A stretch of DNA of 64,000 bases from Prosthecobacter algae (lineage in GTDB: Bacteria > Verrucomicrobiota > Verrucomicrobiia > Verrucomicrobiales > Verrucomicrobiaceae), in NCBI RefSeq assembly GCF_039542385.1, contig NZ_BAABIA010000001.1, forward strand, positions 186,001 to 250,000. Reading direction: 5' to 3'. This document shows, one piece after another, positions 19,658 through 29,068 of this stretch. Position 1 is the stretch's first letter. The number at the start of each line of letters is the position of its first letter. Made by a program: the position numbers and the translations under genes. The notes under the pieces are model-generated. The model searched no databases. It saw nothing but the letters and a program-made list of their open reading frames with translations, and was not told where the DNA came from.

Positions 19658-20365
19658 ATGTTGCGTCGCACATGGCTTCAGGGCTGGCTCATCGGGACTG
19701 CGCGTACAGTCACGGGATTGGCTTGGGCGCGCGGGATGGTGATGGAGGTGGCCGCTTTGCAAACAGGGCCGGGCGCTTTGTATTTATCCTTGGCCAGCTT
19801 TCCTGCTTTGCAGTCGGTAGGCGGCTCCGTGCAGGTGAATCTCAGTGCGGTGGATACGGCCCTCATCGTGACACGTGCTTCGGTTTCCTCTTTCCATGCG
19901 CTTGATTCTGTTTGTACGCACGCAGGCTGCACCGTGGGCACCTTTGTGCAGCAGCAGGGTTACATGCAATGCCCTTGCCACGGTTCCCGTTATGACATTC
20001 AAGGCCAAGTGGTTCGCGGGCCTGCGGAAGAAAATCTGGCCTCGTTTGGCATTGAATTTGACGGGGCTGATGAGTTGAAAATCACGCTGCCGAACCTGCC
20101 CCTGGATGTGAAGCCCATCCAGCTTTACCGCCGCGCTGGAAATCGCCTGCGCTTGAAGTTGACTTTTGAGGGCAAGTCGGGACGGCGTTATCAGCTCCGA
20201 TTCAAGGCGGATGTCGTTTCTGCTTTTTCCACTGTCCCCTTCGCAGTGACTCCGAATGGTCTCGCCGTAAGCTCTGAGATATCGGTCACGAGTGATGGCC
20301 CTCGCCACCTTTATGTGGACTCAGATAACCAGCGAGGCTTTTACATCGTGGATGAAGTGGAGTGA
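19658..20365 (+). CDS. Rieske [2Fe-2S] protein
   Basis: The 235-residue protein has an Arg-Arg-containing N-terminus (MLRRTWLQGW), which may be a Tat-type or membrane-anchor signal, and a Rieske domain at about 55-135. The cluster ligands are complete: C86-x-H88 in CTHAGC and C105-x-x-H108 in CPCHGSRYD. The extra cysteines C91 and C107 can form the stabilising disulfide of high-potential Rieske proteins. The C-terminal 90 residues are a beta-rich domain I do not recognise. It may pass electrons in a periplasmic oxidoreductase or a small bc-type chain, but no cytochrome gene is beside it. It is convergent with the ATPase/SPFH operon, 6 bp from that operon's last gene. Confidence 0.9.
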   Translation: MLRRTWLQGWLIGTARTVTGLAWARGMVMEVAALQTGPGALYLSLASFPALQSVGGSVQVNLSAVDTALIVTRASVSSFHALDSVCTHAGCTVGTFVQQQGYMQCPCHGSRYDIQGQVVRGPAEENLASFGIEFDGADELKITLPNLPLDVKPIQLYRRAGNRLRLKLTFEGKSGRRYQLRFKADVVSAFSTVPFAVTPNGLAVSSEISVTSDGPRHLYVDSDNQRGFYIVDEVE

Positions 20366-20371
20366 GTAGTT

Positions 20372-20977
20372 TTAATCTCCCAATGAGCCGCCTCGGATGA
20401 TGGCGATGTCATCGGCACTGAAGCCCGCAGCCTTCAGCCCTTCGTCATTTACTTTTCTTTGGCGAGCTTGCTGCGCGTAAAGACGTAGCCGTGCCTCATG
20501 ACGGTGGGCTTCGTCCGGGATGGCTTCGACCCACGCGAGAGCCGTCTGCATCTGCCCCTGATTGGCAATGCCAAGCGCGAGTGAAGACAGGCTGGGAACG
20601 AGATCGTCAAAGCGCTCGGTTTGGTTGATCCAGTCCGTGGCGGCTTTCGGATTTTGGTCAAACCAAAGCAGCAAGCTGTCATTGAGCTGGCGTGCCTCGC
20701 CGTTTGGCTCCAGTGCACGTACTTCGGCCTCATAATCTCGCTGAACTAAAGGACCGCTACGTGGTTGGAGGACCACTTGGGCAGGTGCATCCGAAGTGAC
20801 AAGATCCGGCACGCTGGCCTCCTCCCAAAAAGGGCGCTCCATTGCCTGGGGCTGCACCTTGATTGGGCTGGGAGGCATCACTTTGGTCCCCTCAGGTTGG
20901 CCTAAATAAAGACCCCAACCGGCGGCCATCAGCAGCGCAGAAACCATCAGTAAAAGACTCGCAGACTTCTCAGACAT
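20372..20977 (-). CDS. Membrane-anchored small protein of the SPFH/ATPase operon
   Basis: The 201-residue protein starts at ATG 20977, which overlaps the ATPase stop by 8 bp. One N-terminal membrane segment (about residues 7-26, ASLLLMVSALLMAAGWGLYLG region) is followed by a Pro-rich spacer and a helical C-terminal domain. That domain contains WFDQNPKAATDWINQTERFDDLV and ALAWVEAIPDEAHRHEARL, a short helical-repeat style seen in some Verrucomicrobiota envelope proteins. I recognise no named family. Overlapping genes argue that it works with the ATPase and SPFH proteins, with its soluble domain probably outside the cytoplasm. Confidence 0.7.
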   Translation of the reverse strand: MSEKSASLLLMVSALLMAAGWGLYLGQPEGTKVMPPSPIKVQPQAMERPFWEEASVPDLVTSDAPAQVVLQPRSGPLVQRDYEAEVRALEPNGEARQLNDSLLLWFDQNPKAATDWINQTERFDDLVPSLSSLALGIANQGQMQTALAWVEAIPDEAHRHEARLRLYAQQARQRKVNDEGLKAAGFSADDIAIIRGGSLGD

Positions 20978-22892
20978 GGGCCGGCGTGAGTGATAGTGAC
21001 GGAGCGGTGGCAGCTTCCTCCTGAGGCTCCGTTTCCAGGCCGTCAAAGCGGAGCAAACGTGCGCTGTTAAAGATCACAAAGAAGGCGCTGAACTCATGCA
21101 TGAAAGCAGCGGCGATGGGGTTGACAAAGCCAAGGCTGCTGAGCGTGATGGCCAGGATGATGAAGGCAAATCCACACAGCAAGTTTTGATTGATGATGCC
21201 TACCGTGCGGGCGGAAAGCAGCAGTAGGTCTGGCAGGCGGCGGAGGTCATGGGTCATCAGGGCCACGTCGGAAGTATGCACGGTGACATCATTGCCCAGG
21301 GTGCCCATGGCCACGCCCACATCGCCTTCCGCCAAAGCTGGGGCATCATTGAGTCCATCGCCGATGACCAACACCCGGCGGCCTGCGGCTTTCAGTTCAC
21401 GGATTTGGCGCACCTTATCCTCCGGCAGGCACTCAGCATGCAGATGGGTGATGCCTACCTGAGCCGCGATGTGTTGAGCCACTTCCAGTCGATCTCCGGT
21501 GAGCATGTGGAAATCCTGAATGCCTAAAGAGCGCAATCGTTCCAGGGCCTCATGAGCCTCGGCACGCACTTGATCGGCTAACAAAAAGGTGGCGATGTGG
21601 CGACCGTTTTGCGCCAGGAGCACGAGGCTGTGGCGGGTGAAATTTGCCGGGTCAATGGCTAACGGCGTGCCGCTTTTCATCAACCAGGAGCTGCGCCCGA
21701 TCTGCAAACGCCGACCCTCACTTTCGCCTTCCAGTCCCAGGCCGTGATGCTCGGTGAAGTGGGTGATGGCGGGCAACTGCTGTCCCTCACCTGCGGCAGC
21801 AATAGCCCGTGCTACGGGGTGATTCGACTGCTGTTCCAGCGCGGCGGCCAGTTGGATCACCTGCTCTCGAGTCAAGGTTTCATCATGCACCAGCACCTTC
21901 TCCAGTTCGAGCTGGCCCAGCGTCAGCGTACCGGTTTTATCAAACACCACCGTGTCCACCAGACGGGCCGTTTCCAGATGGCGGATGCTTTTCACAAGCA
22001 ATCCGAGACGTGAAGCGGATGCAATGGCCGAGACCATGGCAGAAGGGCTAGCCAGCACAAAAGCACAGGGGATGCTGACAACGAGTACGGCGATAGCGCG
22101 CTCCATGTCCTGAGTGAAAAAGAACACACTCGTGGCGATGAGCAAGATGAGCGGGGTGTAGTAGCGGGCGTAGTCTTCGGCGAGACTGATGATGGGGGCC
22201 TCGGATTCCTTTGCCTGCTCGATGATGCTCTGCACTCGGCCCATCACAGTATCCATGCCCGCCCCGGTTACGCGCGCCTGGAGAAAGCCATTGAGATTGG
22301 CCGTGCCAGCGTAGATCTCGCTGCCGGGGGCAACCTCCACCGGCACAGATTCACCCGTGATGCGGCTTTGATCCACCATCGCTTGGCCGGTCACGACCGT
22401 GGCATCGGCAGGCACCATTTCGCCGGGGCGAATGAGAATCTCATCACCGATGCGTAGCTCGCTGGATTCACACTCTTCGTCGGTATCTCCGATTTTACGC
22501 CGGGCGCGCAGGCGGGTGAGTTGGCGCAGTTTTGACAAGGCCATTTCCACGCCTACTGTGGTGCGTTCTTCCAGCATCTGGCCAAACAAAAGGATGATGG
22601 CCACGATGCCCCCGGTGAGATACTTGCCCGTGGCTAAACATGCCGCCAGTGCGAGCACCACATACTGGTCCATGTAAAACTGAGTAGCGCCAAATCCCGT
22701 GGCCCGAATGGCCGTGATGACGCCGCGAACGATGGGGGTGGCCACAATGAGCGTGGCCAGGAGAGCCAGGGCTCCCTTCACGGTCTCCTGCTCTGGGCGC
22801 AGCCACCCGGTGATGACGGAGGCAGCCATGAGAGCCGTGGCCACAAAGAGCAGCAGCAGGCGCTGGCGGGTCGTTGAGTCGAGATCATTCAT
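20970..22892 (-). CDS. P1B-type metal-transporting ATPase with altered CPC motif
   Basis: This 640-residue P-type ATPase has actuator TGES at 179-182, phosphorylation motif DKTGTLT with Asp318, the P1B-specific HP pair in SNHP at 358-359, and GDGLNDAPA at 511-519. It lacks an N-terminal heavy-metal-associated domain. The membrane metal-site motif, normally CPC or SPC, reads I274-P-C276, so ion specificity cannot be assigned from standard subclasses. It should pump a cation out of, or across, the inner membrane. It shares a 4-bp ATGA overlap with the upstream SPFH gene and an 8-bp overlap with the downstream small protein, implying tightly coupled synthesis. Confidence 0.92.
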   Translation of the reverse strand: MNDLDSTTRQRLLLLFVATALMAASVITGWLRPEQETVKGALALLATLIVATPIVRGVITAIRATGFGATQFYMDQYVVLALAACLATGKYLTGGIVAIILLFGQMLEERTTVGVEMALSKLRQLTRLRARRKIGDTDEECESSELRIGDEILIRPGEMVPADATVVTGQAMVDQSRITGESVPVEVAPGSEIYAGTANLNGFLQARVTGAGMDTVMGRVQSIIEQAKESEAPIISLAEDYARYYTPLILLIATSVFFFTQDMERAIAVLVVSIPCAFVLASPSAMVSAIASASRLGLLVKSIRHLETARLVDTVVFDKTGTLTLGQLELEKVLVHDETLTREQVIQLAAALEQQSNHPVARAIAAAGEGQQLPAITHFTEHHGLGLEGESEGRRLQIGRSSWLMKSGTPLAIDPANFTRHSLVLLAQNGRHIATFLLADQVRAEAHEALERLRSLGIQDFHMLTGDRLEVAQHIAAQVGITHLHAECLPEDKVRQIRELKAAGRRVLVIGDGLNDAPALAEGDVGVAMGTLGNDVTVHTSDVALMTHDLRRLPDLLLLSARTVGIINQNLLCGFAFIILAITLSSLGFVNPIAAAFMHEFSAFFVIFNSARLLRFDGLETEPQEEAATAPSLSLTPAHV

Positions 22893-23986
22893 CGGGCAAA
22901 TTCAGGGGCAGGCTCTAGGATGACGGTGGGGCGGGCCTGCTGCATCGGCAGCAGGGTGCGGGAGGAAACCTGGCCCATCACTCCATCCAGCGTCTCCCGC
23001 AGCAGTCTCTGGGAAACGAGTTGGGGATTCAGGCGATAGTTCCCCAGCAGGGATGTGAAGGAGGACGCTTCACCTTTGGCAGACTCCACCAGGCCCGTGG
23101 CATAACCTTCTGCACGGAAAAGAATGGAGGCGGCTTCACCCTCAAACTTCGTGCGTGTTTCCGCATCGTACTGACGGGCATTTTCAAACATCGTTTTGGC
23201 AAACTGGCGTGCATTCGTCACCTCCTCAAAGGCCGCCAGAACCTGGGCAGGTGGCGAAAGAGCGCGGATGTCCAGACCCGTGATGCGCACACCCAGGTGC
23301 AGCCGGCTGGCTTCAGCCTGCACCTGTTTCGTCGCCTCCGCTGCCACATCGCGGCGATCATCGGTCAGGCTGGCATCAATGCGCCTGCGGGCGAGCTGAG
23401 CTGTCAAGGCTCGGTAACTAAGTCTCGCGAGCAGGATTTCGATGCGGTCGCCTGCGATGGTATAACGAAAAGGATCGTCAATTCGGTAACGTAGATTGAA
23501 CTGCCCCTGGATGACATTGGTGTCTAAGGTCAGCGTGTAGCCATGGTCCAGCGGATTTAGTGTGGTGTGGTCGTAGGTGGGGTATTTGGCCCCTTCCACG
23601 TCACGGGAATTCATCTGCTGAATCAGCTCTTCGTTGGTCGGTTCGATCTGCTTGTCTGGATCCCCGATCTTGGTGCCGATGAGTGCCCAGGCATCGAGTG
23701 GCAGGCTGGTATCTTTGCCAGTCTCAAAAAGCAGCACTTCATCAAAGGGACGTGGCAGCCCCACCAGTAGGCCTGGCTGATGCAGGTGAGGTTGCAGGCG
23801 TCCCAGTCTCCTCACCAGCGCCGTCTGCTGCGGCTGGATGGTATGAATGCCGGAAACCGCATAAAGAAGCAGCAATGCCGCAAAGACCCAACGGGCGTGA
23901 GCGGTGAGCTGCTTTAAGAACAGCAGCAGCGCCTCCACGACGTGGCCTTCATCCCGCAGGCTGATGGGGGTGTGGGCGGGCTTCAT
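22889..23986 (-). CDS. HflK-like SPFH-domain membrane protein
   Basis: The 365-residue protein has one membrane segment (about 32-49), then an SPFH/prohibitin domain beginning IQPQQTALVRRLGRLQP. A helical region rich in Ala, Glu and Arg (ENARQYDAETRTKFEGEA) follows, as in HflK/HflC. An insertion of about 55 residues between the first SPFH strands (near KDTSLPLDAW to NPLDHGYTL) is not usual for HflK. HflK and HflC form a cage around the FtsH protease in E. coli; no ftsH is present here. The gene overlaps both neighbours by 4 bp, and the partner is most simply the adjacent ATPase or the other SPFH proteins. Confidence 0.88.
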   Translation of the reverse strand: MKPAHTPISLRDEGHVVEALLLFLKQLTAHARWVFAALLLLYAVSGIHTIQPQQTALVRRLGRLQPHLHQPGLLVGLPRPFDEVLLFETGKDTSLPLDAWALIGTKIGDPDKQIEPTNEELIQQMNSRDVEGAKYPTYDHTTLNPLDHGYTLTLDTNVIQGQFNLRYRIDDPFRYTIAGDRIEILLARLSYRALTAQLARRRIDASLTDDRRDVAAEATKQVQAEASRLHLGVRITGLDIRALSPPAQVLAAFEEVTNARQFAKTMFENARQYDAETRTKFEGEAASILFRAEGYATGLVESAKGEASSFTSLLGNYRLNPQLVSQRLLRETLDGVMGQVSSRTLLPMQQARPTVILEPAPEFAR

Positions 23987-24966
23987 GGCGTGCTATCCAG
24001 GGCGGCTGGGGCAGGGGAGGGCATAGGGGCAGCGCTGCCATTGGCGACGGCTCCCGGTTCCGTGGCCTTCAGCCAGTGAAAGGGGGCCACGCTGGTGTCC
24101 AGGATCACGGTGGTGTTCTTATCCACCACGCTGCGCAGGCTCTGCAGCTCCCGCAGGAATTTGTAAAACTGCGGATCTTGACCATGGGCCGCTGCATAGA
24201 TGGCGGAGGCTTCCGCTTCGGCCTTGCCGCGCATCTCTTCGGCCTGCCGTTTAGCATCGGCGATCATTCGCGTGGCTTCCTTGTCCGTTTCGGCTTTCAT
24301 CTCGGCCGTCTTGGCGCGGCCTTCGGCGCGATACTGTGTGGCCTCCCGTTTTCGCTCTGCACGCATGCGGCGGAAGACGGATTCCGTATTGGCCTCAGGA
24401 AGCTGGATCTGAGTGATGCCGGTGGAAATGAGCTCGATGCCCAGTTGCTTTGCGGCATCTCCTGCGGCCAGGGCTTGCATTTCGCTCTCTAGTTTCTCAA
24501 GCGGGCTTTTTTGATTTTCGCTCATCAGCAGAGCGGTGAAGTCGTGACGGCCTAACACTGAGTTGCGTGCGCTGGTGACCAGGGCATCCAGCTTGATGTG
24601 GGCCTGCTTCAGCTCACGCACGGAGGTGTAGAACAGAAGGGGATCTGCCACGCGCCAGGTGAAAAACATGGGCACGATGACATTGCGCTGATCTCGTGTC
24701 AGCGTTTCGCTGAGGCGGATGTCGGCGTGCTGCAAGCGGCGATCCACGCGGACGATTTGCTCCACCGGCATGGGCAGGCGAAAGTAAAGGCCGGGGGCGC
24801 TCAAAATGCGCACAGGTTTACCAAATCGCAGGATCAGCGCATGCTCCGTCTCGCTCACGATGAAGCAGCAGGCGGAGGCGATGACGCTGAAAACGACGGC
24901 CAGGATGAGCCCGAGGCGCAGGCTGATGAGGCGGTTTCGAGAGGGGGATGGTGTGGCTTCGCTCAT
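23983..24966 (-). CDS. hflC: HflC-like SPFH-domain membrane protein
   Basis: The 327-residue protein is close to classical HflC: one membrane segment (about 17-38), an SPFH start VSETEHALILRFGKPVRIL, then LPMPVEQIVRVDRRLQ, and a long Glu/Ala/Lys-rich helix (AEGRAKTAEMKAETDKEA). A conserved C-terminal strand includes NTTVILDTSVAPF. The 4-bp overlaps with both flanking genes show strict operon structure. It probably forms a hetero-oligomer with the two other SPFH proteins encoded alongside. Classical HflC works with HflK on FtsH; here a metal ATPase is encoded instead, so the client may differ. Confidence 0.92.
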   Translation of the reverse strand: MSEATPSPSRNRLISLRLGLILAVVFSVIASACCFIVSETEHALILRFGKPVRILSAPGLYFRLPMPVEQIVRVDRRLQHADIRLSETLTRDQRNVIVPMFFTWRVADPLLFYTSVRELKQAHIKLDALVTSARNSVLGRHDFTALLMSENQKSPLEKLESEMQALAAGDAAKQLGIELISTGITQIQLPEANTESVFRRMRAERKREATQYRAEGRAKTAEMKAETDKEATRMIADAKRQAEEMRGKAEAEASAIYAAAHGQDPQFYKFLRELQSLRSVVDKNTTVILDTSVAPFHWLKATEPGAVANGSAAPMPSPAPAALDSTP

Positions 24967-26750
24967 GGCTGAGTCTGGGCGGGTGGCGGAGTGGGCATGG
25001 AGGATGAGGCTTTCAGAACATTGTCTGCATCCGCGGGTGAAAAGTCTGGGGCAGGCACCTCGCCTTGGTCTGCGCGAAGGTAGCCTTCGATGTCGAGATC
25101 AAAGGCGTCGGTGGATTTTACCGGGCGCGGCACCAGGGTCTGCGGGCGCACAGCGGCGGTATCCACAAAGTCGGGATTCAGCACCTTGCGCAGATCCACA
25201 TGCGTGGGCATATCACCGCGCATGGATTCATCGAAGATGGCCTTCTTCGCCCCACTGAGGGTCTCATCCAGCACCCGGAAACCTTCGCGCCATTGGTAAA
25301 GATCTTTGCTTAGCGCCCAGGATTTTTGCATGGCGGTGAAACGGTGTGCTTGGCCCTCGGTCTGCATCAGGCGATTGCTCGCACTGGAACCTGCGGTGAT
25401 GAGGATGGCTTTGGCATCTCCCTCCGTTCGGGTGAGGATGTCCCGGCGGTAGGCCTCCCCCTCATGCAGCAGCGCCTCTTTTTCTTCCAGGGCGCTGACC
25501 ACTTCCTGGAAATTCGGGGCCACACTCACCGGTGGGTGGATGTCCCGCAGATACACCTCGGCCAGCACCAGCCCACTCTGGCGCTCATCCAGCGCGGCTT
25601 GCAAATCTCGGTGCAACTGCTGGCGGAGCGTCTCACGTGAGGTGGTCATGATATCGCGTGCGGGCAGGCGCAGAGTGAGATTGAGCAGGACCCGCTGGGC
25701 CAGGCTCCGCAGCAGGGCTTCCGCATCGGAGGAAGACCGCAGATGCAGCGCGGCATCCCCGACCCGATAAAAAACCGGCACGCTGATGGAGAGAAAATCA
25801 TCTCCACTGCCCACGAGCGAATGCTGCTCTCCCTCATAGTGGGCTTTCTCCCAGAGGATAGGCTGGCCAGGATCTGTGCGAAAGCCGAGCACGATTTCGC
25901 GCAGGCGAGTTGTATCCACGGCCTGGATGCTGCCCAGGGGCCAGGGCAGCGAAAAATGCAGGCCAGGGGCCAGAGGTCGGCTCTCCCAAGTTCCCAGGTG
26001 ATGACGCACCCCGGCATGGCCAGCAGGCAGCTCATGCACAGTGCTGAGTAGCCAGACCAGCAGGGCGATGGTGCTAAGCAAAGCGGGCAGGGCCCCCCGC
26101 ACGGTGGGCCACATCCACATCTCCGCTAGTTTCAGGTCAAAGCTCTCATCCCGTGCCGTCGTTTCAGGCAGGCAGGCACGCCACTCGCCGCCTAACAAAC
26201 GATAGAAAAAGAAGGCCCCCGGCTCTGGCAGTGTCTGCCAGTGGCGCTTGGGCGTGTAGAGCCGGCCCACCAGGCGCAGCAGACAATCCAGCACCAGCAG
26301 GGCATTCAGCACCGCATAAGCAAGGGCCAGCCAACGCTGCCAACTGCCGCCCAGATACAGGGCTCCGAGCAGAACCCCTGCCGTGATGAAATGAAGAAAT
26401 ACCGCCAAGCGGGCCAGGCAGAGCTGGACGTGGCTAACGTCACGCTTTTTTAAGGCGGTGTGAATATTGAGAAAAGCAAGGGCCGCCCCGATGAGCAGGG
26501 CCCCGATGGGGTGGGCCGTCAAAATGGCCCCGTCTGGCATGTTCTGCCCTAGTGTCCAAACCCAGCCGCCGGTGGCGACGATGCAGACCACGATGCCCAC
26601 TCCCAGCCAGCGACCTGCAATGCCAGCCAGAAGGGCCGTGCATCCCACCAAAGGTAAGAGCCAATACATCTTCAAGGCCAAAGCGAGTACGCTTAAGCCG
26701 ATAGCCTCCAGCCCAAGGGCGAAGCTAAACAAAGGATGTTGGCGATTCAT
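24963..26750 (-). CDS. Polytopic HflK-like protein with N-terminal multi-span extension
   Basis: This 595-residue protein starts at ATG 26750; a GTG 33 bases upstream is open but less likely. About six membrane segments occupy residues 9-155, and a further one lies near 220-242. An SPFH domain follows (ELPAGHAGVRHHLGTWESRPL to about 440), then a Glu/Ala-rich helix and a Pro-rich tail. Ordinary HflK has a single membrane span, so the first 200 residues are an added module. The RDIHPPVSVAPNFQEVVSALEE segment is typical of HflK. It is the first gene of the five-gene overlapping run ending at 20372. Confidence 0.88.
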   Translation of the reverse strand: MNRQHPLFSFALGLEAIGLSVLALALKMYWLLPLVGCTALLAGIAGRWLGVGIVVCIVATGGWVWTLGQNMPDGAILTAHPIGALLIGAALAFLNIHTALKKRDVSHVQLCLARLAVFLHFITAGVLLGALYLGGSWQRWLALAYAVLNALLVLDCLLRLVGRLYTPKRHWQTLPEPGAFFFYRLLGGEWRACLPETTARDESFDLKLAEMWMWPTVRGALPALLSTIALLVWLLSTVHELPAGHAGVRHHLGTWESRPLAPGLHFSLPWPLGSIQAVDTTRLREIVLGFRTDPGQPILWEKAHYEGEQHSLVGSGDDFLSISVPVFYRVGDAALHLRSSSDAEALLRSLAQRVLLNLTLRLPARDIMTTSRETLRQQLHRDLQAALDERQSGLVLAEVYLRDIHPPVSVAPNFQEVVSALEEKEALLHEGEAYRRDILTRTEGDAKAILITAGSSASNRLMQTEGQAHRFTAMQKSWALSKDLYQWREGFRVLDETLSGAKKAIFDESMRGDMPTHVDLRKVLNPDFVDTAAVRPQTLVPRPVKSTDAFDLDIEGYLRADQGEVPAPDFSPADADNVLKASSSMPTPPPAQTQP

Positions 26751-26799: not shown

Positions 26800-26831
26800 A
26801 TTCCCGGTTAGGCCTGGGCCTAACCGGGAAT
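26800..26831 (-). terminator. Perfect 14-bp hairpin after the PhoX-like gene
   Basis: ATTCCCGGTTAGGC and GCCTAACCGGGAAT form a perfect 14-bp stem with a 4-nt loop. It lies 30 bp past the PhoX-like stop and 50 bp before the SPFH operon start. On the minus strand CTGCATTTTC follows, a weak U-run. It probably ends the PhoX-like transcript and separates it from the SPFH operon. Confidence 0.7.
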
Positions 26832-26861: not shown

Positions 26862-28532
26862 TCAGTCAGCGACTGGGCGCATGAGCAGCACCTGACCATC
26901 TTCAGCGAAGAGGCTCACGGCTTCTGCGCGTGTGTAGGTGCCACCGGTCGGTTTCGGGATGTTGGAGCGGATGGAGGTCGCGAGATCACCACTTGCAGGA
27001 GTCAGGGTGACATTGGTGCGGTGGGCCTGGACGTTCACCACGAAGGTATCTGGGCCAAAGATCTCATCGGCACGGATGATGCCTGAGCTTTCCCAAAGTC
27101 CACGTGTGGTGATGGCGGAGTGGCCGTCACGGGCCTCCACACCTGCGTAATTGAAGGTGCTCTGCAGTTTGGCTGCATACTGCTGATTGCGATTCAGGCT
27201 CCACAGACCGCCATTACGGGCGTATTTGGCGAAGACTGCATCCGCAGGGCTGTTGCGGTCTTCCTGCACCATGATGAAGTTGTTGGAGATGGCGATGTTG
27301 TCAATGCTGACGGGGAAGTCCACGCCGTTGTTGACGTCGCCACCGGTGTAGCTACCCAGGGAACCGGTGATGCCATTGGCTGCCACCAATTTACCCACGG
27401 TACCGTTGTAAGTGCCACCAGGAGTGACGATGGTATCTGCATTGTACACGACATTCAGCGTGCCATTCGCCACTGGGTTGGTTGGGTTCATCGTCAGTTC
27501 ATAAAGACGACCCAGGCGATTCGGGCCACTGCCGCCAGTGGTGGCGAGGAAGAGGCTACGAGTAGGCTTGGCAGGGTCGAATTCGGCATCTTCAACGCGC
27601 ACGAAACCAAAGGCTCCGGCGGCATCTGCTGCGGTCAGCAACTGGGCATCGGTCAGGTTACCGCCGTTCGGGATCTGCACCCACTTAACGGGCAGTTGAC
27701 CCGAGGTGAAGGTACCTTCGTTGTGCTGGGCATTGCGGCCGCAAAGCACATAAACTTTACCATCCGTCAGGCCATTGCGATCCAGCGGGCTGGTGGAGCG
27801 AGGTTGTTTGCGCCCTACATACATATAAACATAGGAAGGGGAACCGGCATCTTCCGTGGAGATCGCCACAGTCAGGCTATCGCGGCGGGGTTGGATGATG
27901 GTGGTTTCACGACCGATGCGGCCCAGGTCAGGCGCGGTGTGCATGTTCCCATTGGCGATGACCACGGTCTGAGAACCTTTGGCGGTTTCATAACTTGGAG
28001 CACCGAAGGTTTCTTCATTGGTGAAGAACAGGGGGCGATCCATGCCATGAGCGCGGCTGGCGAATGAGCCGGAGCAAAAGCGCGTGAAGGAATTCAGTGC
28101 ACCTTCCAGGGGAGGGGTGGCGGAAACTTCCGTGTTTTCGAGGAAAAGTTTGGCGTGGGCAGGGGCACCACTGACCACACCTCCATTATTGGCCAACACG
28201 TAGCGAGAGACGAAGGCCCCCTTAAACTTAGTCTGGCCAGGGATGGGTTCGCTGAGCACGGTATTGCCGACTTCATGAGCCACGAAGAGAATGTTCTGGC
28301 CACTGACGGTGTCTTTGTAGAGACCCATGGCATCAGGAATGCCCACAAAAGCGAAATCCTTGCTGGCATCGCCAGTCAATGGCACGCGGTCACCAACGGT
28401 GACGATGGGCTGATACGTGAAATCAGCGCCTGGAGCCGGAGTCAAATAGGAGAACTCCGAAGTCTGAAAGCCTTGTCCGAAGGCGGCGGAAGCGAGCAGA
28501 AGGCTCGCAGCAAAGGTGGTGGATGTTTTCAT
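26862..28532 (-). CDS. Exported PhoX/DUF839-like protein
   Basis: The 556-residue protein starts at ATG 28532 with a signal peptide ending ASAAFG. Repeating beta-propeller-like segments fit the DUF839/PhoX family of calcium- and iron-dependent phosphatases: ILFVAHEVGNTVLSE, PLFFTNEET, VRVEDAEFDPAKPTRSLFLAT and FIMVQEDRN. I did not check that the complete set of PhoX metal ligands is present, so phosphatase activity is likely but not certain; some relatives lack it. The expected place of action is the periplasm or outside the cell. It diverges from the secreted-protein genes at 29069 onward and is followed by a strong hairpin. Confidence 0.78.
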   Translation of the reverse strand: MKTSTTFAASLLLASAAFGQGFQTSEFSYLTPAPGADFTYQPIVTVGDRVPLTGDASKDFAFVGIPDAMGLYKDTVSGQNILFVAHEVGNTVLSEPIPGQTKFKGAFVSRYVLANNGGVVSGAPAHAKLFLENTEVSATPPLEGALNSFTRFCSGSFASRAHGMDRPLFFTNEETFGAPSYETAKGSQTVVIANGNMHTAPDLGRIGRETTIIQPRRDSLTVAISTEDAGSPSYVYMYVGRKQPRSTSPLDRNGLTDGKVYVLCGRNAQHNEGTFTSGQLPVKWVQIPNGGNLTDAQLLTAADAAGAFGFVRVEDAEFDPAKPTRSLFLATTGGSGPNRLGRLYELTMNPTNPVANGTLNVVYNADTIVTPGGTYNGTVGKLVAANGITGSLGSYTGGDVNNGVDFPVSIDNIAISNNFIMVQEDRNSPADAVFAKYARNGGLWSLNRNQQYAAKLQSTFNYAGVEARDGHSAITTRGLWESSGIIRADEIFGPDTFVVNVQAHRTNVTLTPASGDLATSIRSNIPKPTGGTYTRAEAVSLFAEDGQVLLMRPVAD

Positions 28533-29068
28533 GAGAGGATGAGTCAAGGAGGCGTTAGGAAATGTCATTCCATCGGCACTCTCATCCCAACCCCATGTCC
28601 AAGCTGTCGACAAACAAGCCTGCGTAACACTTCCGCCTCATGGCAGAAATGTCACGCGAAGGCGCTTGGTGGCCGACCTTCAAACCTAACCAAAAGCGAA
28701 ATAATAAGATTTAATCGGATGATTGATTGTTAGATGCCTTTCAAATGACTCTATTGGGTCAGCCTGATGTCACAAAAACAGTGAGCTGCTCGAAACAACT
28801 CAGCGGGCGGGGATCATCCATTTTGAGAGTGGGGGACGAACGAGAAGTGAGTGTGCCAAAAGTCGGTGTGACGAAAACGTCGCACGGAAACCATTGTTTG
28901 GCAGCTACCCCACGTACCCAAAAGACCTAGCGAAGTACTGAGCCTCATTAAGAAATGGGGTAGGTGACGAAAGTGTTGCTGAGGAGCTTTTGTCCCATGT
29001 CGCGAAGTGGGGTCATGTCGGCGGACGGTGCTTCAGAACCCTCGCACCTTCACGACCACCTCAAAATC
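28533..29068. other. 536-bp divergent intergenic region
   Basis: No convincing gene is seen. The region must hold the promoters of the PhoX-like gene and of the secreted-protein operon. It contains a near-perfect palindrome at 28866-28885 (GTGTGACG-AAAA-CGTCGCAC, one mismatch) and other GTGACGAAA/GTCACAAAA-like words at about 28768 and 28963, which may be operator sites. Small open frames here lack gene character. Confidence 0.5.

Follow-up and report, generated by a model that had tools for sequence, protein, structure and literature searches.

Three SPFH genes and a heavy-metal P-type ATPase gene form a conserved module in Verrucomicrobiota and Pseudomonadota

Organization of the locus

We analyzed a 64,000-nucleotide stretch of DNA from Prosthecobacter algae (assembly GCF_039542385.1, contig NZ_BAABIA010000001.1, positions 186,001 to 250,000; hereafter the window), which carries an operon of five open reading frames (ORFs), A to E, on its minus strand (Table 1). 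Its first four genes, three encoding SPFH proteins (A, B, and C) and one encoding a P1B-type ATPase (D), are a module conserved across two phyla, Verrucomicrobiota, to which the window belongs, and Pseudomonadota. A and B, B and C, and C and D overlap by 4 bp each, and D and E overlap by 8 bp, as a first-pass annotation made from the nucleotide letters had stated; its further claim that the products are made in a fixed ratio found no support, the overlaps suggesting translational coupling only.

Table 1. Genes and features of the SPFH-ATPase operon (positions in the window; aa, amino acids)
Feature	Position	Strand	Remarks
A, multi-span N-terminal module and HflK-like SPFH protein	24963..26750	-	595 aa from ATG 26750; GTG 26783 would give 606 aa
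B, HflC-family SPFH protein	23983..24966	-	327 aa; single N-terminal hydrophobic helix
C, HflK-like SPFH protein	22889..23986	-	365 aa
D, P1B-type (heavy-metal) ATPase of the SPFH-linked (HmtA-type) clade, IPC variant	20970..22892	-	640 aa
E, small protein with N-terminal hydrophobic stretch (by eye)	20372..20977	-	201 aa from ATG; TTG 21046 would give 224 aa
IPC at the CPx place of D, residues 274-276	22065..22073	-	Sequence reading and survey
HEFSA in the last hydrophobic segment of D, residues 599-603	21084..21098	-	Sequence reading and survey
14-bp hairpin between the upstream gene and A	26800..26831	-	z -5.73 for the 111-nucleotide spacer

The identification of three SPFH proteins and a metal P-type ATPase held up in searches with curated models. 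Band_7 was matched above its cutoff of 23.6 bits by A (50 bits), B (98.7 bits), and C (47.5 bits), and D scored 511.1 bits against the heavy-metal model TIGR01525 (cutoff, 346.25 bits). In addition, B passed NCBIfam hflC (TIGR01932; 182.2 bits, cutoff 134.4), while the HflK model (TIGR01933; cutoff 159.4 bits) was passed by neither C (135.6 bits) nor A (93.4 bits); C matched HflK of the Protein Data Bank (PDB) with an E value of 2.4e-26. In a phylogenetic tree of 64 SPFH sequences, whose reading frames were picked by profile, B grouped with HflC (support, 100/98), including two proteins that pass the HflC model, and A and C grouped with HflK (98/96). The A proteins of both phyla formed a single group (99/97), and C alone formed one group in just 30% of the bootstrap trees. 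One transmembrane window was found in B, whose lone N-terminal helix would fit an HflC-like topology with the tail in the cytosol.

FtsH, with which HflK/HflC normally work, had been described as absent, which is true of the operon and untrue of the genome, where one FtsH is encoded; moreover, a separate adjacent gene pair on contig C4 of the same genome passes the HflC and HflK models. None of the five operon proteins matched NfeD models at the thresholds used, unlike the SPFH-NfeD systems. Protein E matched no family above cutoff in scans with Pfam/NCBIfam-type models. Clear homologues of E were found in 7 of the 12 loci examined that share the ion-site variant of the window's D (the xPC branch, described below), namely, the window, L032 to L035, L166, and L167 (L and G numbers being our handles), and the E profile gave two weaker matches adjoining the operon in L036 and L184; all of these counts come from the examined loci rather than from a genome-wide search. 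As E is found only in part of the window's branch, a five-gene unit was rejected as the conserved core, and the five-gene operon of the first-pass annotation was too strong a description for a core of four genes, A-B-C-D.

Conservation of the A-B-C-D module in two phyla

Genome contigs were searched with a profile built from an alignment of Pseudomonadota B proteins; with the searches in Verrucomicrobiota described below, the sampling covers two phyla. In the best 80 of at least 257 relatives, which belong to Enterobacteriaceae and to Pseudomonas and its kin, the four genes occur without exception (80/80) in the order A-B-C-D on one strand. Seventy-four of these loci have a single ORF per gene (one A being a 346-amino-acid fragment), three have a split gene, and in three A falls outside the counting range yet is present. 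Exact 4-bp overlaps were found at A/B in 36 of the 80, at B/C in 67, and at C/D in 65. A tblastn search against plasmids, read together with their annotation, revealed A-B-C-ATPase in Paraburkholderia sprentiae, Rhizobium tumorigenes, Klebsiella aerogenes, and Burkholderia ubonensis. The K. aerogenes copy (L046, 6175-11901) is plasmid borne; the plasmid is typed as conjugative, and a gene for a transposase of the Tn3 family stands ∼2.4 kb downstream of the module. At E values up to 1e-60, protein B was detected in 9 of the 299 genomes of the phylum of one Pseudomonas, that Pseudomonas included.

Within Verrucomicrobiota, the A profile matched 191 of 387 genomes at E values up to 1e-28, the weakest of which may be ordinary HflK. 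Twenty regions around the better A matches were inspected, of which 18 hold all four genes (one D being cut at a contig end), 1 ends at a contig edge, and 1 (G362) has no D. Another 17 regions comprised 3 repeats and 14 new ones, all of them four-gene and one (G059) ordered D-A-B-C. Two or three module copies occur in some genomes (loci L247, L248, L167, and L168), with three D genes in G181 and two in G137, and one copy is ordered D-A-B-C.

The linkage was also seen from the side of the ATPase. A search for D in 155 genomes of the phylum gave 67 matches of at least 360 bits, a line drawn post hoc between the lowest linked D (368 bits) and the best unlinked one (357 bits), and 66 of these 67 stand beside SPFH genes. 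Fifty-two lie within 6 kb of one of the best 150 A matches; 14 of the other 15 adjoin SPFH genes, among them 5 from one genus with B-C-D together and A elsewhere and 3 at contig breaks. None of the 16 weaker P1B matches is near any of those 150 A matches, and in the two weak-match regions inspected (L255 and L256) the single B-like match was weak (73 bits) and ∼4.6 kb away, in L255.

The first-pass annotation had proposed a functional link between the SPFH proteins and the pump and had held that it would be weak if the gene order were unique to this genome or if the ATPase mostly stood apart from SPFH genes. Neither is the case, as the A-B-C-D order recurs in distant relatives and the ATPase adjoins SPFH genes in all but one instance of the 155-genome sample, and the recurrence in distant relatives argues that the operon arrangement is not due to chance. 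The proposed link is partly supported in this way, and the suggested cage or microdomain housing the pump would agree with what is known of SPFH domes.

The pump and its ion site

The motifs DKTGT, TGES, GDGxND, and HP are all intact in D, suggesting that the pump is probably active. Its nearest solved structure by sequence is 7qbz (named as a cadmium-translocating P-type ATPase; E value, 9.2e-81), which is also the best PDB match of a Rhizobium D. D thus resembles the P1B ATPases in its best PDB match and in the presence of all four catalytic motifs tested, and it differs from them in belonging to a separate clade. In a phylogenetic tree of 71 ATPases, all 37 labeled SPFH-linked Ds (of 107) fell within one group of 41 (Shimodaira-Hasegawa approximate likelihood ratio test, 99), and the remaining 4 members (L203, L207, L211, and L212) are SPFH-linked by position; HmtA itself is not in the tree, in which it is represented by Pseudomonas relatives with the same gene order. 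Three low-scoring ATPases (L195, L200, and L201) and the genome's own SPC/HEGST ATPase (L040) fell outside the D clade. Belonging to the SPFH-linked clade and standing in an operon with the triad, D of the window is of the HmtA type.

The window's branch forms one group in this tree (10 sequences; support, 100) and is set apart by its ion site. A survey of 137 distinct D sequences revealed CPC in Pseudomonadota and in most other relatives; in 11 sequences the CPx place read differently or could not be read, and in 7 the last segment could not be read. All 12 xPC loci have I, L, or M before PC and HE[F/T]SA in the last segment, and HE in that segment was found in no sequence read as CPC. The IPC of the window's D is an xPC form and accordingly places D among the P1B ATPases, for which the x of xPC is listed as Cys, Ser, or His (PMC8456098), so that Ile is unusual here. 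The window's D is probably active, judging from its motifs, but with a different ion site. The P1B-4 pumps (SPC/HEGGT) presumably resemble this site in part.

The Pseudomonas aeruginosa counterpart

In P. aeruginosa, PA14_33070/33080/33110 correspond to PA2439/PA2438/PA2437 (PMC9431628), which have been named PaFlo5-7 and form one predicted operon (PMC13086221); the word ATPase was not found in the available text of the latter paper on PaFlo5-7. HmtA (PA2435), a P1B ATPase reported as a Zn/Cu importer, belongs to the same cluster as the triad. In a znuA mutant, PA2435 rose 5.6-fold, PA2437 14.4-fold, PA2438 10.6-fold, and PA2439 9.0-fold, and a weak Zur site was noted in the cluster (PMC4542158). 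Moreover, Zur with zinc shifts the PA2439 promoter (PMC8531726), the triad belongs to the NAC-induced zur set (PMC9431628), and zinc depletion raises HmtA and its neighbors, significantly for PA2438 and, in the paper's words, PA2439 (PMC11761036). According to a review (PMC10393844), overexpression of HmtA leads to hypersensitivity and metal gain.

Our Pseudomonas relatives are ordered A-B-C-D; in L058, L068, and L076, a gap of ∼600 bp separates C from D, and the gap of L068 contains a small gene that would fit PA2436, the match to PA2439-PA2435 resting on gene order and on other Pseudomonas species. The window's operon and the cluster PA2439-PA2438-PA2437-PA2436-PA2435, which is zinc responsive (PMC4542158, PMC11761036), both combine three SPFH genes with a P1B ATPase gene. 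They differ in that the D of Pseudomonas relatives has CPC, HN in the last helix, and in most cases His-rich tails, whereas the window has IPC, HEFSA, and no tails, as well as E. The first-pass annotation had called the operon a candidate undescribed system, which overstates the case, since the P. aeruginosa cluster with HmtA is already in print as a zinc starvation cluster. No description of an SPFH-P1B module across phyla or of the xPC branch was found in the open-licence literature, and an older survey of SPFH proteins (PMC2636767) does not contain the word ATPase in its available text.

Signs of metal handling in the relatives

A tail of B or D with at least three His residues or with CxxC/CxC was found in 84 of 85 Pseudomonadota-side sequences and in 25 of 40 other non-xPC sequences of Verrucomicrobiota, though some of these tails may be too long because they were taken from mechanical ORF starts. 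By the same crude measure, 2 of the 12 xPC loci have such a tail (L034 in D and L169 in B). The putative His/Cys-rich tails of the relatives support a role in metal handling.

Flanking genes were compared in two sets, one of 92 proteins from the Pseudomonadota side (113 ORFs listed, 29 loci) and one of 112 proteins from the other side (140 ORFs listed, 37 loci). On the Pseudomonadota side, no family occurs in more than 3 of the 92 proteins, ZIP transporters being among those at 3; by family count, ZIP genes flank three copies there, two of which were identified (L065 and L067). A ZnuA gene flanks L213, and the Paraburkholderia copy comes after zinc ABC transporter genes and a PCu(A)C gene. On the other side, ABC_tran was found in 13 and PhoX in 4 of the 112 proteins. 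An ABC ATPase (DrrA/GldA-like) follows the operon in several CPC-type loci of Verrucomicrobiota (L174, 458-4716; L222, 13193-17443; and others), and some of these loci also encode an ABC-2-like permease and a protein with a single hydrophobic helix at its N terminus. Of the 15 proteins in the downstream ABC cluster, at least 11 are encoded by the gene immediately following the operon.

Of 110 regions upstream of A, 49 contain a Zur-like box with at least 13 of 17 positions, whereas base shuffling predicts 2.3; because most of the 110 regions belong to mutually related bacteria, Pseudomonas and its kin, the 49 hits are not independent. In the window, tails, flanking genes, and Zur boxes give no such sign, and only the pump itself points to metal there.

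Predicted structure of protein A

The AlphaFold2 model of the window's A is modest (predicted local distance difference test [pLDDT], 63.0; predicted template modeling score [pTM], 0.33), and its best structural matches are HflK/C, as chains of the Escherichia coli complex, and other SPFH cages. The N-terminal module of A from a Pseudomonas relative was modeled with a pLDDT of 87.8 and a pTM of 0.80, the predictions having taken in 30 and 39 of 79 usable relatives. The top 28 rows of a VIA-align search with this module were all metal transporters of the CDF family, and the next row had a Z score of 7.7. The first of them, YiiP, gave a Z score of 14.5 (root mean square deviation, 3.5; 197 residues aligned), although the tool warns that helical models may reach a Z score of 14 through helix arrangement alone, and Foldseek gave an E value of 0.064 only. 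For the window's A, the best CDF match had a Z score of 11.3, with a ferritin close behind at 9.7, and the CDF rows were not separated from unrelated helical bundles. Profile comparison of the module with CDF gave 67.7% for a set of 14 sequences of Verrucomicrobiota and <1% for the Pseudomonadota set and the window-branch set. Pfam Cation_efflux had no match at E values up to 1 in the window's A or in 10 relatives, and zinc-site residues were not evident in the consensus of the module, judged by the site pattern of CDF proteins. Thus, the likeness to CDF proteins (YiiP and ZnT) lies in the predicted fold of the module in the Pseudomonas relative, and the differences lie in the lack of a Pfam match or clear zinc site and in the window's A not standing apart from helical bundles. 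We regard a CDF fold of the module as a lead from modeling.

A proposed SPFH dome for a metal pump

HflK/C form a dome around FtsH (PMC13220708), and a stomatin dome encloses aquaporin-1 and UT-B (PMC12407830). By analogy with these two systems, we propose that A, B, and C form a periplasmic dome that houses or corrals D, so that the locus would encode a metal transport assembly in which an SPFH dome houses or organizes a pump of the HmtA type, a reading to which we assign a probability of roughly 0.55. The genes, their motifs, the ATPase clade, and the linkage were observed directly, the zinc starvation induction in P. aeruginosa comes from the literature, and the topology, the complex, the metal, and the direction of transport in P. 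algae are inferred. A, B, and C would be a three-part relative of HflK/HflC, coassembling as a dome on the periplasmic side of the inner membrane, with A anchoring the dome through its extra multihelix membrane module. D would work inside the dome or at its rim, replacing the FtsH that canonical HflK/C enclose. In CPC-type relatives, including Pseudomonas HmtA, the cargo would most likely be zinc (perhaps copper), taken up under starvation, and the cytoplasmic His/Cys-rich tails on B or D would receive or buffer the ion. Because its ion site is rebuilt (IPC and HE) and the tails are mostly lacking, the pump of the window's branch probably transports another ion or has another way of handing the ion over.

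The precedents resemble the proposed assembly in part. The window's operon shares with E. coli HflK/HflC-FtsH the SPFH fold, the HflC family of B, and the best structural matches of A, which are chains of that complex; it differs in its three SPFH subunits, in the extra membrane module on A, and in having an ATPase pump in FtsH's stead. The stomatin dome is likewise an SPFH dome holding a transporter (PMC12407830), but it is built of human stomatin and holds channels rather than an ATP-driven pump. The genes of flotillin-associated rhodopsins, membrane proteins from an ion pump family, are likewise paired in a conserved manner with an SPFH gene (PMC10308929), but here the SPFH protein is a flotillin, and the rhodopsins are an unrelated transporter family.

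Several observations weigh against a dome around the pump. The support comes from gene linkage, from which a physical complex of D with the SPFH proteins is a further step, and the linkage has exceptions: the D of G135 (1 of 67) stands alone, with its A-B-C on another contig; one genome carries A-B-C without an adjoining D; and five genomes from a single genus (L239, L241, L242, L257, and L258) have A at a distance from B-C-D, a natural separation that could reveal the contribution of A. The module is also patchy, with an A match of >500 bits in 5 of 35 genomes of the window's own genus (one cut by a contig end). The window's proteins have no metal-binding tails, and Zur control of its operon was tried as a candidate and found no support, the best Pseudomonas-type box upstream of A reaching 9 of 17 positions with a Pseudomonas consensus that may differ in Verrucomicrobiota. 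In Pseudomonas, zinc addition does not lower hmtA mRNA (PMC8531726), a review (PMC10393844) names hmtA as an exception to Zur binding and considers that the importer claim, made in one 2009 study, needs confirmation, and deletion of PaFlo5-7 in PA14 gives little phenotype, zinc limitation not being among the conditions described in the available text (PMC13086221).

More tentatively, and at somewhat worse than even odds, the module may represent an old class of machine common to Verrucomicrobiota and Pseudomonadota, in which a three-subunit SPFH dome with a CDF-fold module on one subunit would enclose a P1B pump and form a metal-handling compartment at the inner membrane; the window's branch, with its rebuilt ion site (xPC and HE) and without the tails, would move a different ion.

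It is also conceivable, although unlikely, that the triad is a second modulator of FtsH of the HflK/C type, produced together with the pump and controlling, under metal stress, how fast the pump or other membrane proteins are turned over instead of housing the pump. This would agree with the placement of B in HflC by a curated cutoff, with the single FtsH of the genome, with the zinc dependence of the FtsH protease, and with the views of the authors of PMC9431628 and PMC11761036, who read the Pseudomonas genes as modulators or interactors of FtsH. However, the near-constant partner of the triad is the ATPase (66/67), the genome has a separate pair passing the HflC and HflK models, and the annotation of the four plasmid regions viewed contains no FtsH gene, the other loci not having been searched for FtsH.

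A role of D in export, in which metal would be loaded onto proteins of the periplasm or envelope in an SPFH-bounded patch and the tails of B and D would deliver cytosolic metal, seems about equally improbable. N-terminal cytosolic metal-binding tails are typical donors, and the ABC transporter genes that follow several CPC-type operons of Verrucomicrobiota would be compatible with such a role, as would the usual export direction of P-type metal ATPases (PMC8456098, PMC10393844). Uptake is nevertheless the better fit to the zinc starvation induction in P. aeruginosa (PMC4542158) and to the hypersensitivity and metal gain upon HmtA overexpression (PMC10393844). Least probable is mere coregulation, with the SPFH proteins aiding membranes under metal stress in general and never touching the pump, for although contact of D with them is inferential, A or D stands apart in one genus and one genome, respectively, and the deletion phenotypes in PA14 are mild, coregulation would hardly tie one ATPase clade to SPFH genes whose positions are conserved in two phyla.

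Although SPFH proteins are widespread, only a few of the proteins they serve have been identified. The gene linkage seen here points toward one such client, a specific clade of metal pumps in two phyla. A dome housing the pump would also offer an explanation for the zinc starvation induction of PaFlo5-7, and the importer question of HmtA becomes testable with its likely partners present. Moreover, the window's branch provides a natural ion-site variant for structure-function work.

Neighboring genes

The hairpin upstream of A is probably the terminator of the upstream gene, and the operon likely starts at A because this hairpin separates the two. Homologues of the upstream gene (26862-28613, minus strand) stand directly upstream of the operon in L032, L033, L034, L036, L166, and L167 (E values of 4e-119 or better), and in the window's branch this gene may belong to the linked set as its sixth member. 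The homologues in L033, L036, and L167 match Pfam PhoX, and the window's copy had no significant Pfam match. On the other side of the operon, the convergent gene beside E (19658-20365, plus strand) contains a Rieske-like CTHxGC...CPCHGSRYD motif, recognized by eye.

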